Shown here one piece after another: positions 9,961 through 20,895 of a stretch of DNA of 33,693 nt (positions are counted from its first letter, which is position 1; each line of letters starts with the position of its first letter). The notes under the pieces are model-generated. The model ran no database searches, was not told where the DNA came from, and saw only the letters and a list, made by a program, of their open reading frames with translations. Source of the stretch: Ignavibacteriaceae bacterium (lineage in GTDB: Bacteria > Bacteroidota > Ignavibacteria > Ignavibacteriales > Ignavibacteriaceae). The stretch lies in contig JARLHC010000083.1 in NCBI GenBank assembly GCA_031292455.1, positions 1 to 33,693 of the forward strand, written 5' to 3'. Made by a program: the position numbers and the translations under genes.

Positions 9961-10751
9961 AAAAATTCCTTTTAATTTCCCTACTCGTCAGGCTTTTCGG
10001 TTACGCCCCGTTTGTTTTGTGGTTTCTGGACTCCACCCAATATACTTTTAATTATTAAAATTTATGACAGGTTCCCTAAGAAGTTTTTATGATATTCATT
10101 TTTAGTCAGTTCATTTTTTAGGAACTTATTGAAATATTTTTTTAAATGCAAATGATTATAATTAGATTGGTTCAAATTAAAAATATTACAAGCAATAGGA
10201 TTTGTTATGAAATTACTTTAGAGATTATGAACAACCGCAGTTATATGTGCAGTATCCCCGATAACAAGGACAATCAATTGTATTAGAATACTTTTACTAA
10301 AATGTTTAGAATCCGCGATATTCCCTATTCCTTTGAAACCCGAACCGCTAACGCAGGGTAAAGTTCCCTCAGGTTGTACACTTGATTTTAAGTAAACAAC
10401 TTATAAAATCTGTTAACTTTTTTTTACATTGGGAGAGTTATCCAAAACAGATATTATAGATTAAGGAATCATAGTCGTTGGGGTAATCCACTGAATCATT
10501 TTATTGATAATTGTTATTTAAGAACCAAAAAAATCATTTGGTTTTACTGATTGAAGTTATTTACAGCGCTTACGAGGTTCCAACAGGGCACAATGCAAAA
10601 ATTTATCCATTAAACTTTCGAATAATATGATTTGTCAAAATGCAGAAGTGAATTTTAAGAACATATTTATAATTTCAATTAAGAATAAATATCTGAGAGG
10701 TGTCTGAAGAAATTTTTACTGAATGTTTAAACATATAAGGAGGTTACCATA
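9961..10751. other. 791-bp gene-free stretch
   Basis: I see no recognisable gene, tRNA or riboswitch. A minus-strand frame of about 50 codons at roughly 10225-10395 is open but has no start and matches nothing I know. A 7-bp hairpin (AACCAAA/TTTGGTT) is at 10523-10543. The right edge holds the strong Shine-Dalgarno AAGGAGG at 10737-10743 for the gene at 10752. The left edge must hold the promoter of the TM2 operon. Confidence 0.4.
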
Positions 10752-15720: not shown

Positions 15721-16318
15721 ATAATTTTCAACTTCATTAAGCAATTATCGGCACGGATGAGATTTTGATGAGGCAAGGACTACCCTTTTCATCCATTTAG
15801 ACTATTGAATGCACATATAGAGAATTATTCATTCAAAAGATTTAATTCCTTATTCATTCCTTTGCCCGATTGAGCACCCCTAAATTACTTCATATGTTAA
15901 CATCATAATAAAATGAATAGCCCATAAAATATTTATTATTTACAATGATAATGAAGTTATCAAATGAACCAATTGAAATGAAATTTGACATAAAGTTATA
16001 ATTTAGTAAATTTATACTAATTATAATCTTAACTCCGAGTCTATCAACCTACGTCGTAATCGATATGGTTGAAGACCAGTAAGTCGGTTGCGACTTCCCG
16101 AATCGTTTTATGATTTGTGACGGGTTCATCGAGAAATTGGTGAGCCTCCCGAATTTGGAAAGGAGCTAATTTTGAGCAGTCAAACTGTAGAAGCATAATT
16201 GTGCCTATAGTGAATAATTTACAACTCAAAATCTTGCTACAGATTTAATCTTCTTACTTTCCAAAGATCATATCACTATTTATTCGCACCGGTGTATTAA
16301 CTTTAACTGAGTTAGCAC
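15721..16318. other. 598-bp gene-free stretch with a repeat
   Basis: It contains repeat copy B (15842-15872) and a perfect stem AAGTCG/CGACTT at 16081-16096. A 61-codon minus-strand frame at 16044-16229 has a TTG start and plausible composition (IREAHQFLDEPVTNHK, then EVATDLLVFNHIDY). I recognise no family and do not call it a gene. I looked for B12-box or TPP-like conserved blocks ahead of the transporter at 16319 and found none. Confidence 0.35.
15842..15872. repeat. 31-nt direct repeat, copy B
   Basis: This copy begins TTAATTCCTT and ends GCCCGATTG. It has four mismatches to copy A at 13491-13521, is in the same orientation, and lies about 2.35 kb from it. It starts 122 bp after the RNB stop codon. 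Confidence 0.6.
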
Positions 16319-18058
16319 TTGACGAAACAAAAATACAAGAACCTTGACCCAATCTGGGCAAAAGCCGCATTACTTGGTAGTATGTGGGGCTCAATAGAAA
16401 TTATAGTGGGGAGTTTTCTACATAATCTCCGGATACCGATGACCGGCACAATCCTATCTGCCATCGGCGTGTCGCTACTTATTGGAGGGCACTATCTATG
16501 GAAGGAAAAAGGGTTGATTTGGCGTGCGGGTGTAGTATGCGCGCTTATGAAGTCGATCTCACCGAGTGCTGTAATAATCGGTCCGATGGTCGGGATTTTG
16601 ACAGAAGCATTTGTGCTTGATTTCCTGATACGAATGTCGGGAGGATTATCGATTGGTGTTTTCATTGGAAGCGGGATTGTGGTATGTCTGCCGTTTGTTC
16701 AATCGATCATCAATCTTATAATAACCTATGGATTTAATGTTGCCTCAATATACGTGGGGGTCTACAAAATTGTAGTAAAGAATATCGGCATGCAAAATAT
16801 TAGCATATACCGGGCACTGGGAATATTCTTTTCGCTAAATGCGATCTTTGGTTTTTTTGCTGCATTTGCAGGAATGGCAATAGGAAAAAGAGCAGCAACA
16901 GAAACGCTTGATACAATTCCGACAGCTATAGAGGGAAAGAACTTTTTACTTCCGCCTGTTATCACTTTACATCGATTCTCGATCATATTGCTGATAGCGA
17001 GCTGTGCTATAATTCCATTTATGCTTTTTGCAATAAGTAATCTGACATTGCTTTGGTCGTTGCTATTAGTAGCTACATACACGGTAATCATGGTAAAACG
17101 TTATCCAAATTGCTGGAATAGTTTATCCAGAATAAAAATCTGGATAGGGATGATCATTATTATCCTCCTTTCGGGACTTTTACTTGGCGAGATAACTAAC
17201 ATCCGATCAGGCTGGACGTGGGGCGGAATATTCGTTGGTCTTCAAATGAGTTTACGGGCCATTTTTATGGTAGTAGCTTTCAATGTCATTAGTGTTGAAC
17301 TGCGTAATCCGAAAATTATAAATTGGGTTCTTAGGCGAGGGTTAGGACAGCTGGCCACGGCAATGGAAGTCGCCTTTGATGCACTTCCGACACTAATTGC
17401 CTCTCTTGGGGAGCAGCGTAATGTTTTGCGGCATCCTATCATCTCGCTTTCGCGACTTTTCCTTGTTGCACAGCATCGAATGAGACAGCTTAAACTGGGA
17501 GATTCCACAGGGAATAAAATTTACATTTTAACAGGTGAACAGGGGACGGGGAAAACAATGTTTCTCTCGCGTCTTGTGGATGAACTCCGGAAAAAAAATA
17601 TTCAGGCAGGCGGAATATTATCCCCAAGTGTGCAGAGAGACTCAGTGCGGCTTGGTTATGACGTATTGAATATCCGGACAGGAGAGCGAACCATACTTTG
17701 CCGAAACGAACCCGGATCTACCGGCATCAATATTGGCAAGTGGATTTTTCGTAATGATGGAATACAATCGGGTAATTCAGCGCTCGATCAACTTTCCCTT
17801 ATTGGCTGCGGTTTGGTAATTATTGACGAAGTAGGGCCATTGGAACTTGAGAACAAAGTCTGGTGCCCGTCACTTAATTTACTGGTTGGTTCATCGCCAT
17901 ACCCGTTGATTCTTGTTGTGCGGGAAAAACTAATTGAGCGTGTAACAGACCGCTGGTCATTTATTCCAGAAGCCATTTGGAAAATAAGCAGGGACAATTC
18001 AGAAGAACTTTTAGTAGAAATAACAGATGCGATAATAAGACCAATCAATCAATTATAA
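16319..18058 (+). CDS. Polytopic membrane protein fused to a THEP1-type P-loop NTPase; possible ECF-like transporter
   Basis: A 579-residue fusion. Residues about 10-390 are membrane-embedded, with roughly nine or ten hydrophobic segments. The first half (AALLGSMWGSIEIIVGSFLH, ILTEAFVLDFLIRMSGG) resembles the S component of ECF importers. The part at about 305-385 (MSLRAIFMVVAFNVIS, LRRGLGQLATAMEVAFDALP) has the feel of an EcfT coupling protein. Residues about 400-575 are a nucleoside-triphosphatase of the THEP1/NTPase_1 family: Walker A TGEQGTGKT (Lys412), then LVIIDEVGPLEL as Walker B at about residue 500. No ABC ATPase is nearby. The start is a TTG with a weak ribosome-binding site. The TonB receptor begins 17 bp after the stop, so this is the first gene of an uptake operon; the substrate is unknown. 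Confidence 0.72.
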   Translation: MTKQKYKNLDPIWAKAALLGSMWGSIEIIVGSFLHNLRIPMTGTILSAIGVSLLIGGHYLWKEKGLIWRAGVVCALMKSISPSAVIIGPMVGILTEAFVLDFLIRMSGGLSIGVFIGSGIVVCLPFVQSIINLIITYGFNVASIYVGVYKIVVKNIGMQNISIYRALGIFFSLNAIFGFFAAFAGMAIGKRAATETLDTIPTAIEGKNFLLPPVITLHRFSIILLIASCAIIPFMLFAISNLTLLWSLLLVATYTVIMVKRYPNCWNSLSRIKIWIGMIIIILLSGLLLGEITNIRSGWTWGGIFVGLQMSLRAIFMVVAFNVISVELRNPKIINWVLRRGLGQLATAMEVAFDALPTLIASLGEQRNVLRHPIISLSRLFLVAQHRMRQLKLGDSTGNKIYILTGEQGTGKTMFLSRLVDELRKKNIQAGGILSPSVQRDSVRLGYDVLNIRTGERTILCRNEPGSTGINIGKWIFRNDGIQSGNSALDQLSLIGCGLVIIDEVGPLELENKVWCPSLNLLVGSSPYPLILVVREKLIERVTDRWSFIPEAIWKISRDNSEELLVEITDAIIRPINQL

Positions 18059-18074
18059 AAAAAAAGGAAACTAA

Positions 18075-20093
18075 ATGAAAAAACTATTCATCACAATGTT
18101 TGCTGTTTGTCTTTTAAGTATTGGAATTTATTCCCAGACAACTCCCCCATCGGCTGGATCTAAAGACAGCCTGAAGATTTTTTATCTTGGCGAAATTGTT
18201 GTAACAGGAACGGTTGAAAATGCAACTTCGCCATTTCAGCAAGACAACATATCTAAATCAGAACTAGAAAGTAATCATTTGCTTGATGCTTCACATGCTT
18301 TAAAATTTCTTCCAGGTTTATCGCTTTCAAGTGTCGGCGGACGTAACGAATCAATGGTTTATGTACGCGGTTACGATTTACGTCAGGTGCCGGTATTTAT
18401 AGACGGGATTCCCGAATATGTTCCATACGATGGATATGTTGATCTTGCCCGATTCACCACATTTGATCTTTCAGAGATCACGGTAACGAAAGGATTCTCA
18501 TCAGTATTGTATGGTCCTAACGCGATGGGAGGGGCGATTAATCTTGTGTCAAGAAAACCAACAGCGAAGTACGAATACGATCTCTCCAGCGGTATCATGA
18601 ATACGGGCGGGTATGATTATGCAATTAATCTTGGTACAAATCAGGGATTGTATTATTTAACCGGAAGCGCTTCCAAGCTAAGGCAAAACTCATATCCGCT
18701 TTCTAAATCGTTTGCGCCAACCTCAACTGAGAACGGCGGCGAACGCGACAATTCATACCGCAATGATACCAAATATAATTTAAAAGCGGGGTACACTCCT
18801 AACGCAACGGACGAATACTCCTTTACTTATATAAACCAACAGGGGGAAAAAGGAAATCCGGTTTACACGGGAAACAATCCTAATGGCACAATACGGTATT
18901 GGCAATGGCCTGATTGGGACAAGTTCAGCGAATACTTTATCTCCCAGACGCTCATTGGTGATAAGGCATCAAACGACAACGTGTTACTGAAAACAAGGTT
19001 CTTTCATGACAAGTTCAAGAACACACTTTTTGCATATGATAATGCTTCCTATAATACCCAGTTAAAGAAAAGTTCATTTCAGAGTTATTATGATGATGAT
19101 ACATGGGGCTCAGTAATTGAAGCATCAAGTGGAATGATAACCGATAATCATCTTACATTTGCAACACATTGGAAAGAGGACATTCACCGTGAGCATAATC
19201 TGGGTGAGCCAATAAGAACCGTGAGTGATGCAACTATATCAGCCGGAATGGAAGATGCATACCATGCAACTTCTCAGTTGACTTTTGTCGGCGGATTAAG
19301 CTACGATTTCCGAAAAGAATTAGAAGCGCAAAACTATGACAGTAAATCGAAAACAATTTCCGATTTTCAGCTGGACAACACTCATGCGTTGAATGCACAA
19401 CTCGGAGGTTATTTCAATCTATCTGAAGAGAGACAATTATCATTCAGTATAGCCCGTAAAACACGTTTTGCTACAATGAAGGACCGATATTCCTATAAAC
19501 TTGGAACCGCACTGCCCAATCCGAGTTTGATACCAGAACAGGCAATCAATTATGACCTGGCATATCAAGAGATTCTTAGCACAATTGGTAAATACAAAGT
19601 GAGCGTGTTTTATAACGATCTTAATAATGTTATCCAACAGGTCAGTAACGTGCAAGGAAATCTAAGCCAAATGCAAAATCTCGGAAAGGCGCATTATTAC
19701 GGGAGTGAACTTGAATTAGATACTCGTATTTTATCAATTGTAAGTGCCGGGGGGAATTATACATTTCTTAAACGAGAAAATATTTCAAATCCAGGTGTGA
19801 AATTTCTAGATACACCTGAACATAAAATTGTTCTGTACCTTAATGTCTTTCCAATATCGGCAATGGAGGTTGTAGCAAGTACGGAATATAACTCTGCACG
19901 TTACAGTACAAGCGATGGCACTTACCCAGCGGGACCATTTGCTGTTTTTAACTTAGGGGCATCGTTGAATCTTTTCAGGATGTTTAAGCTGGATGCGGGA
20001 ATACAGAATCTTTTTGACAGAAATTATTCGCTAACGGAAGGATATCCCGAACCAGGAAGAACGTTTTATCTAACACTACACTTTCAAAATTGA
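18075..20093 (+). CDS. TonB-dependent outer-membrane receptor
   Basis: A 672-residue receptor. The signal peptide (1-20) ends GIYSQ. A TonB-box-like stretch, GEIVVTGT, lies at about residue 39. The plug domain follows with LKFLPGLSLSSVGGRNES, VYVRGYDLRQVPVFIDGIP, FDLSEITVTKGFSSVLYG and AMGGAINLVSRKP. The remaining ~500 residues form a 22-strand-type barrel with the usual C-terminal block: FKLDAGIQNLFDRNYSLTEG, then PGRTFYLTLHF. There is no N-terminal carboxypeptidase-like domain, so it is not a SusC. It is of siderophore/cobalamin-receptor length. It sits between the membrane-NTPase fusion and the DUF364 protein, which favours a metal or metal-complex ligand. A clear purine-rich ribosome-binding site (AAAAAGGAAA) precedes the ATG. 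Confidence 0.92.
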   Translation: MKKLFITMFAVCLLSIGIYSQTTPPSAGSKDSLKIFYLGEIVVTGTVENATSPFQQDNISKSELESNHLLDASHALKFLPGLSLSSVGGRNESMVYVRGYDLRQVPVFIDGIPEYVPYDGYVDLARFTTFDLSEITVTKGFSSVLYGPNAMGGAINLVSRKPTAKYEYDLSSGIMNTGGYDYAINLGTNQGLYYLTGSASKLRQNSYPLSKSFAPTSTENGGERDNSYRNDTKYNLKAGYTPNATDEYSFTYINQQGEKGNPVYTGNNPNGTIRYWQWPDWDKFSEYFISQTLIGDKASNDNVLLKTRFFHDKFKNTLFAYDNASYNTQLKKSSFQSYYDDDTWGSVIEASSGMITDNHLTFATHWKEDIHREHNLGEPIRTVSDATISAGMEDAYHATSQLTFVGGLSYDFRKELEAQNYDSKSKTISDFQLDNTHALNAQLGGYFNLSEERQLSFSIARKTRFATMKDRYSYKLGTALPNPSLIPEQAINYDLAYQEILSTIGKYKVSVFYNDLNNVIQQVSNVQGNLSQMQNLGKAHYYGSELELDTRILSIVSAGGNYTFLKRENISNPGVKFLDTPEHKIVLYLNVFPISAMEVVASTEYNSARYSTSDGTYPAGPFAVFNLGASLNLFRMFKLDAGIQNLFDRNYSLTEGYPEPGRTFYLTLHFQN

Positions 20094-20175
20094 TAAGTAC
20101 GGACTAAGAGAAAGTTCAAGTTTATGATTTATTTAATACTTTTGTAGTAATAGCAGATTAAATGGAATACAATCA

Positions 20176-20895
20176 ATGGAATTAGAAAAAAAACTTATTG
20201 CCAGTATTGAGGGATATGATAACCTTGTAAAGAATGTCTGTATAGGAATAACCTGGACAGCAATCGAATCACGATTTGCCGGGTTGAGCCATACATACCA
20301 AACCACTGAGAAGACCGATATAGCGAATGCCGGAGATTTAACTTCTTTCACTGCTGCAGAACTTGCAAAACGCATACTATCGTGGAAACCTTTAGATGCG
20401 TCGATTGGAGTTGCAGCGATCAACTCATTAGTGGAATCTTCCGGAGAAAAGGGGAACGTTAAGGATTTCATAATGGATAAGGTGCGCGGTAAAGTAGTTA
20501 CGATGGTAGGACGATTTCCATTTTATAATGAGATAGCAGCAATTGCGCGTAAGTTGTATCTGCTGGAGATTAATCCCATTGGAGAGGAGCTTCCTGCTTT
20601 TGCCTGTGAAGAAGTAATTCCCAAATCGGATATGAATTTAATTACAGGTACGGCGCTTATAAATCATTCCCTTCAGCGGCTGTTAGAGCTTGGACAAAAC
20701 GGATATAATATTGTGTTAGGACCAACTACTCCCCTGTCACCAGTCCTTTTTGATTTTGGCGCCGACATTGTTGCCGGTGCCAAAATCACGGATTATAAAG
20801 CTGCATCAAAGAGTATCATGCAGGGTGTGCGAAGGGCGAAAAAGCTACAGGGGGTAGAGCCGTTGTGTCTTTTTCGTAAAGGTATTAAAATATAA
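20176..20895 (+). CDS. DUF4213/DUF364 putative heavy-metal-chelation protein
   Basis: A 239-residue cytosolic protein. Residues about 1-85 match the DUF4213 enolase-N-like domain (IGITWTAIESRFAGLSHTYQ, ASIGVAAINSLVE). Residues about 100-230 match DUF364, a Rossmann-like domain: VVTMVGRFPFYNEIA, then INPIGEELPAFACEEVIP, LITGTALINHSLQRLLEL, VLGPTTPLSPVLFDFGADIVAG. The family is described as a putative heavy-metal chelator on structural grounds, and its real ligand is not settled. Full-length proteins are about 230-260 residues, so this one is complete. It follows the TonB receptor by 82 bp on the same strand, probably as the third gene of the operon, and may accept the imported metal or cofactor. 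Confidence 0.85.
   Translation: MELEKKLIASIEGYDNLVKNVCIGITWTAIESRFAGLSHTYQTTEKTDIANAGDLTSFTAAELAKRILSWKPLDASIGVAAINSLVESSGEKGNVKDFIMDKVRGKVVTMVGRFPFYNEIAAIARKLYLLEINPIGEELPAFACEEVIPKSDMNLITGTALINHSLQRLLELGQNGYNIVLGPTTPLSPVLFDFGADIVAGAKITDYKAASKSIMQGVRRAKKLQGVEPLCLFRKGIKI

Follow-up and report, generated by a model that had tools for sequence, protein, structure and literature searches.

Positions 1–33,693 of contig JARLHC010000083.1 (GenBank assembly GCA_031292455.1, an Ignavibacteriaceae bacterium; forward strand, hereafter the window) contain three closely spaced genes behind a predicted molybdenum cofactor (Moco) riboswitch, and this operon is probably an import route for the finished cofactor (Mo-molybdopterin, possibly in a dinucleotide form), repressed by Moco. 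The first open reading frame (ORF1) encodes a membrane protein in which domains resembling the S-component and T-component (EcfT) of ECF (energy-coupling factor) transporters are fused to a THEP1-type nucleoside triphosphatase (NTPase), ORF2 a TonB-dependent receptor and ORF3 a DUF364 protein. We favour a Moco importer because relatives of ORF1 often stand behind Moco riboswitches and are common in genomes that encode molybdoenzymes without the genes for Moco synthesis; the substrate, the direction of transport, the energising step and the role of the DUF364 protein are what we infer. The initial annotation had proposed uptake of a metal or metal complex, which was the right direction, and the riboswitch together with genome content narrows it to the molybdenum cofactor. 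Overall that interpretation is largely supported, and sharpened.

The riboswitch, which was absent from the initial annotation, matched Rfam family RF01055 at 16021–16181 (+) over the full model (1–135) with 78.5 bits (gathering cut-off 36; E 1.3e-17), and its 3′ end lies 137 bases ahead of ORF1. It is the sole RF01055 element detected in the 3.36-Mb assembly of the host, and on sequence grounds we take it to be a Moco-sensing RNA switch. The three genes proposed earlier were all found as intact frames on the forward strand, namely ORF1 (16319–18058, 579 residues, TTG start), ORF2 (18075–20093, 672 residues) and ORF3 (20176–20895, 239 residues), separated by 16 and 82 bases respectively. The Pfam domains agreed with the proposed order of NTPase, TonB receptor and DUF364 protein. 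ORF2 contains both the Plug (PF07715, 66.7 bits) and the TonB β-barrel (PF00593, 91.7 bits) domains, with no NCBIfam model at its cut-off among the 25 models listed, and ORF3 is a DUF4213 plus DUF364 protein (PF04016, 105.3 bits; PF13938, 59 bits).

Relatives were surveyed in 294 genomes of the class, in which carriers of the system were found by tblastn with ORF1 followed by inspection beside NTPase matches. ORF1 was matched at E ≤0.001 in 79 genomes, many of them through the NTPase part alone, and the system was assigned to 69: 21 with a fused gene like ORF1, 11 with split operons and 37 with other forms, chiefly an S–T fusion plus a separate NTPase gene and also NTPase–S fusions (among the 37, G131, G216, G267, G033, G174 and G246 rest on S-region matches only). 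An ORF1-like protein, mostly full length and with ~30–55% identity, is encoded in 20 other class genomes, and given this recurrence the architecture of ORF1 appears not to be a product of chance. Damaged relatives were also seen, one fragmented (G025), one with a single in-frame stop (G008) and one with an insertion (G013). In all 11 split operons the S gene comes first, followed by T and then the TonB receptor gene; an NTPase gene lies directly behind in seven (G150, G268, G194, G161, G157, G130 and G179). A second scan, with one genome per species over 84,980 species, gave 220 fused-form relatives, of which 80 were kept (the named set, apparently overlapping the class genomes in part); to judge by record titles, they come from Bacteroidota, Ignavibacteria, Chlorobiaceae, KSB1, Elusimicrobia and Acidobacteria. 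A plasmid search with residues 1–394 of ORF1 gave no match.

The class-wide scan for RF01055 gave 51 places, spread over 48 of the 294 genomes (3 of the 51 under the family cut-off). Downstream lay moaA at 27 places, the S/T/NTPase system at 21 and neither at three, the last comprising a contig end (G232), a receptor alone (G185) and a moaA fragment (G166, contig C108). In G185 the receptor, on contig C70 (L111), is of the system type and the fused gene is on another contig; in G166 (L113) a different contig carries a longer moaA behind a riboswitch of its own. Every one of the 11 split operons has RF01055 within 360 bases of the S gene, 10 above the Rfam cut-off and one (G272) at 34.2 bits against the cut-off of 36, and one genome (G130) holds both operon kinds behind RF01055.

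The leaders of these relatives bear on the sign of the control. A strict-rule script detected a hairpin plus T-run between the aptamer and the first gene in G158 as well as in eight of the 11 split operons. The terminator scan picked up the hairpin of L189, which the strict rule missed, and itself missed those of G158 and G154, the latter being missed by the strict rule also; folds of the G154 and L189 leaders show hairpins ahead of T-runs. Several leaders have a loop or arm (CTTTCC, TCTCC) able to pair with the 3′ strand of the aptamer, like a competing antiterminator. Because terminator hairpins follow the aptamer in most split operons, the pattern in the relatives fits an OFF switch, in which the presence of Moco would turn the operon off. 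In the window leader no terminator was detected between the aptamer and ORF1 by the terminator scan or the script. The 9-base stretch CTTTCCAAA (16257–16265, +) is an exact complement of the aptamer 3′ strand and may be a switching element; in the minimum free energy fold of 16021–16340 this region was paired with that strand.

Genome content gave the second line of evidence. MoaA (PF06463 over its cut-off) was found in 120 of the 294 genomes and was absent from 50 of the 69 carriers, including nine of the 11 with split operons (weaker matches in G013, G193 and G233 were scored as absent at the curated cut-off). Among the 53 carriers tested for MoaE and MoeA, MoaE was present in seven, MoeA in 14 and the xanthine-oxidase family PF02738 in 47, the PF02738 counts here and below including weaker members (some at E ~1e-23 to 1e-40), so that some enzyme-positive genomes may be wrong. 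MoaA, MoaE and MoeA were all absent from 35 of the 53, of which 31 encode PF02738. MoaC, tested in 36 carriers, was found in none of the 35 MoaA-less ones. PF00384 had been considered as the molybdoenzyme marker and was discarded in favour of PF02738, as it matched 280 of the 294 genomes, presumably through membership of NuoG in that family.

The system was detected in 45 of the 71 genomes with PF02738 and no MoaA, as against 16 of the 90 with both, five of the 103 with neither marker and three of the 30 with MoaA only. Fisher's test gave p 4.5e-9 for PF02738-positive genomes without versus with MoaA, and p 1.1e-17 versus the genomes with neither, kinship being ignored in both. A more sensitive profile (A4), run on 40 genomes (26 with PF02738 and no MoaA, 14 with neither), detected the system in 11 of those 26 remaining genomes; since A4 covered no MoaA-positive genomes, 45 of 71 was kept as the fair figure.

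These counts also bear on what is carried. Retention of MoeA in four MoaA-less carriers (G154, G015, G058 and G211) would suit import of a Mo-free precursor, cyclic pyranopterin monophosphate or molybdopterin, to be completed in the cell, but the 35 of 53 carriers without MoeA, MoaA and MoaE alike speak for the finished cofactor: loss of MoeA argues against a Mo-free substrate, which we therefore hold to be very unlikely. Import of molybdate or tungstate, free or metallophore-bound, has more in its favour, and is still unlikely in our judgement. The host genome owns Moco genes, a MOT1-type transporter (PF16983) occurs in one of the RF01055 operons examined, and ModE-like helix-turn-helix (HTH) genes (a label given by eye, Pfam HTH_1 being below its cut-off) occur no more than three genes away from the fused gene in eight of the 80 named loci. 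A passage of PMC5317091 describes a Caldithrix Moco locus that includes a MOT1-type transporter, which also counts for this substrate. For carriers without MoaA, MoaC, MoaE and MoeA, however, the known pathway offers no way from molybdate to Moco, and the system is more frequent in PF02738-positive genomes without MoaA than in those with it, the opposite of what a molybdate importer predicts. The established molybdate transporters ModABC and MOT1 handle the same metal, and MOT1 is also found behind Moco riboswitches, but they are unable to supply genomes that lack moa genes. ModA was over its cut-off in two of the 69 carriers versus 24 of 101 MoaA-positive non-carriers, and ORF1–3 gave no Pfam or NCBIfam match to ModABC or MOT1.

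Finished Moco is also in keeping with many of the genes around the relatives, which include those for DMSO (dimethyl sulfoxide)-reductase-family enzymes, xanthine dehydrogenases, XdhC and MobA. PF00384 (DMSO-reductase family) was found ~3–4 kb upstream of the S gene in G113, G058, G211, G272, G130, G161 and G268. In the named set the commonest neighbour is a DUF364 gene, found at most three genes away from the fused gene in 22 of the 80 loci; in 20 of those 22 it immediately precedes the fused gene in the same orientation and mostly overlaps the start of the latter. At the same distance were found a cluster of ~804-residue molybdoenzymes in seven loci, one receptor cluster in six, XdhC in six and MobA-like genes in six, and 46 loci showed none of the searched-for neighbours at a BLAST E of 1e-8. 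Conservation of the trio as such, which the initial annotation had made a test of its proposal, is thus supported only in part. The gene order is receptor, DUF364 and fused gene in L216, and in L217 (Seramator thermalis) molybdoenzyme, iron–sulfur subunit, receptor and fused gene with a MobA-like gene on the opposite strand. Like S. thermalis, Maribellus luteus (L259) is a carrier that has been cultured.

Several fused genes (L037–L041) lie in clusters that resemble, by eye, xanthine or purine catabolism (XdhD, YgfK and SsnA-like), as would be expected if the imported nutrient were tied to molybdoenzyme pathways in another way, a purine or hydantoin for instance. Both the split and the fused forms, however, are also seen next to genes for DMSO-reductase-family enzymes and downstream of Moco riboswitches, which purine import leaves unexplained, and we regard such a substrate as highly improbable. 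The xanthine-oxidase-type large subunits encoded next to fused genes keep motifs such as GGFGGK and EMGQG in L036 and L040; in L037 and L038, MGQG and GVGE are present and GGFGGK is absent.

We next consider the protein architecture on which a transport function would depend. Residues 1–390 of ORF1 matched no Pfam model at its cut-off. The AlphaFold2 (AF2) model of residues 8–200 (16340–16918, +) had a mean pLDDT (predicted local distance difference test) of 93.8, and its top Foldseek match was the ECF S-component 5edl (probability 0.99, template modelling score 0.55, E 0.34). VIA-align gave Z 15.1 against 5edl (root mean square deviation 3.4, 165 residues aligned), and eight of its top nine chains were ECF S-components, some rows being the same protein twice; the other was 9cl6_B, an ammonia monooxygenase subunit (Z 12.6). 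S profiles retrieved nothing from the PDB sequences. Trep_Strep (PF09605) matched one split S protein at 32.9 (cut-off 28.7), with two other split S proteins below the cut-off, and did not match ORF1. When the full-length AF2 model was compared with the PDB, clear matches were obtained for the NTPase domain only; its membrane part matched unrelated helical transporters, a problem that was removed by folding the S domain alone.

The evidence for the T-like domain (residues 218–393; 16970–17497, +) is indirect. By hhalign it aligned with the separate T protein of the split operons at E 1.8e-13, and the split T aligned with EcfT at E 6.7e-6 (probability 84.7), as compared with E 0.36 and 0.4 for two control pairs. 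Aligned with EcfT directly, the fused T gave a weak match (E 0.0067, probability 5.7). The top PDB matches of the split T profile were EcfT (E 0.02 and 0.12), and EcfT was not retrieved from the PDB by the fused T profile or by the combined split and fused T profile. The S/T assignment, which the initial annotation rated as its weakest part, is therefore supported by the fold for the S half and by way of the split T for the T half, the latter being the less certain of the two.

The C-terminal part matched NTPase_1 (PF03266) over residues 403–568 (17525–18022, +) with 83.6 bits (cut-off 23.9), and scored 81.6 bits with the NCBIfam equivalog PRK13695, under its cut-off of 156. The Walker A motif GEQGTGKT is at residues 406–413 (17534–17557), exactly where it had been placed, and a DE motif at 503–504. 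The NTPase part aligned with the THEP1 structure 1ye8 at Z 18.7, so that the proposal of a non-ABC (ATP-binding cassette) P-loop NTPase was borne out. Residues 400–577 share the fold of THEP1 (1ye8) and human HCR-NTPase (2i3b), both of which are single-domain chains of unknown role, whereas that of ORF1 is fused to membrane domains.

ECF transporters are micronutrient importers and often under riboswitch control. Those for comparison (RibU, ThiT, BioY, YkoE and CbiMQO) share with ORF1 the S-component fold and probably an EcfT-related T partner. The present locus differs in encoding an NTPase_1/THEP1 domain where they have two ABC ATPases, in joining S, T and NTPase in one chain, and in its TonB receptor; of the other 25 window ORFs with at least 120 residues, 19 were scanned with Pfam and NCBIfam models, and none was an ABC ATPase. 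Since ORF1 ends in NTPase_1 and the two ABC-type ATPases that define ECF transporters are absent at the locus, we do not class the system among them, although by analogy it would work like one. The trio also resembles BtuB–BtuCDF in combining a TonB receptor with an inner-membrane importer under the riboswitch of its own cofactor. The cofactor differs, and the scanned window proteins included neither a binding protein nor an ABC transporter of the BtuCD type. BtuM, a Gram-negative B12 transporter of the S-component type, is likewise an S-type protein for a metal cofactor, and is not known to have a T domain or NTPase. Cobalamin import under a cobalamin riboswitch is exemplified in a passage of PMC5317091.

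If the operon does import Moco, the receptor would carry this large, scarce cofactor over the outer membrane, to be bound at the inner membrane by the S domain of ORF1. Through the T domain, the S domain would be coupled to the cytosolic NTPase, which would stand in for the ECF ABC ATPases and/or receive the cofactor. DUF364, together with MobA and XdhC in relatives, may handle the incoming cofactor, and an adjoining MobA or XdhC would, we assume, finish it for DMSO-reductase-type or xanthine-oxidase-type enzymes respectively. Once cytosolic Moco is plentiful, the riboswitch would close the operon.

A number of observations weigh against this proposal. The host genome itself encodes MoaA and MoaE (contig 19), MoaC and MoeA (contig 103) and ModA (in two pieces), beside five PF02738 matches, and MoaA is found in 18 further carriers. 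Because the host has synthesis genes, the system would there be an added salvage route beside its own synthesis; B12 importers are often present in B12 makers. Free Moco is oxygen-labile. No system was detected in 15 genomes with PF02738 and no MoaA, A4 matched two of the 14 genomes with neither marker, and the genomes compared are related rather than independent. RF01055 lies near six of the 21 fused class loci and one of the 80 named loci, and thus marks some lineages only; in view of the latter count, RF01055 was rejected as a marker for fused loci in general. Among 20 fused relatives that were retrieved, three (L032, L033 and L042) have a receptor gene next to them, and most loci of the named set are, by title, from metagenome-assembled genomes. 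Four of the 11 split operons (G272, G113, G058 and G211) have no NTPase gene nearby, and G211 has no NTPase match at all in the ORF1 tblastn.

Such operons without a nearby NTPase gene would also suit a different mechanism, compatible with Moco import, in which the NTPase is a MobB-like cytosolic acceptor or chaperone and S plus T translocate otherwise. A MobA-like gene adjoins the NTPase gene in L053, L060, L108 and L162, and the NTPase domain distantly resembles MobB (4oyh) in fold (Z 7.0), albeit within the range common to P-loop matches. Fusion of the NTPase right behind T, on the other hand, suits a coupling role. We think an acceptor quite possible, if a little short of an even chance.

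A 2018 survey (PMC6147048, Table 2) counted 305 bacteria (13+292) with molybdoenzymes but an incomplete Moco pathway, termed ‘orphan molybdoprotein’ bacteria, for which it proposed unknown biosynthesis genes or Mo-independent enzymes. The present locus supplies candidate genes for a third answer, import of the cofactor. We lean towards a dedicated bacterial Moco import route, made of a TonB receptor and an ECF-like S–T unit driven by a THEP1-type NTPase rather than by ABC ATPases, with Moco as a vitamin-like public good; this would explain the orphan molybdoproteins. If true, it would give a THEP1-family NTPase a biological role and point to ECF-like transport that dispenses with ABC ATPases. 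No published bacterial Moco importer was found in the literature, judged by titles and the starts of abstracts, with subscription papers mostly outside the search; titles and abstract starts likewise gave no description of S/T or TonB transport with THEP1, DUF364 with molybdenum, TonB with molybdate, or ECF with TonB. The text of a survey of the S-component fold (PMC11109136) contains neither NTPase, TonB nor ‘molybd’.

Further features were noted in the window and among the relatives. A weak promoter-like hexamer pair (15973–16002, +; 11 of 12 consensus bases) lies directly upstream of the riboswitch; five sites as good occur on both strands of 501 bases versus a shuffle mean of 2.4, and the consensus, that of sigma-70, may not suit the host. 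A DUF805 RNA motif (RF03081) was detected at 9973–10041 (−) with 75.8 bits (cut-off 51.1). NTPase matches elsewhere in the genomes of G113, G058 and G272 (split loci among L062, L063, L064 and L057/L058) raise the possibility of an NTPase shared from a second locus. The NTPase is ahead of the S domain rather than behind T in L069 (7457–8896) and L124 (472 residues), the loci in which the NTPase–S fusion was verified. S-like proteins that stand alone, with neither a T nor a receptor gene next to theirs, are encoded in L057 (7774–8388), L063 (17888–18469), L064 (6762–7352) and L070 (4633–5208); three of these four genes adjoin one for a ~396-residue regulator, PAS-like by eye, and the proteins are perhaps sensors or serve other substrates.

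Other genes recur behind RF01055. The second gene of a riboswitch-controlled Moco synthesis operon in L101 (2243–2770) encodes a chromate-transporter protein of half the usual size (PF02417, 150 bits), which could be a molybdate transporter; similar genes were seen by eye in L105, L119, L120, L125, L126 and L129, L101 alone having been scanned. In L128 the same place is taken by the gene for the MOT1-type molybdate transporter (PF16983; 4010–5197). A ~105-residue protein of the carboxymuconolactone-decarboxylase family is often encoded by the first gene behind RF01055 or beside the system (L101, L105, L119, L120, L125, L126, L042, L044 and L060), the assignment being by PF02627 in L044 and by eye in the rest.

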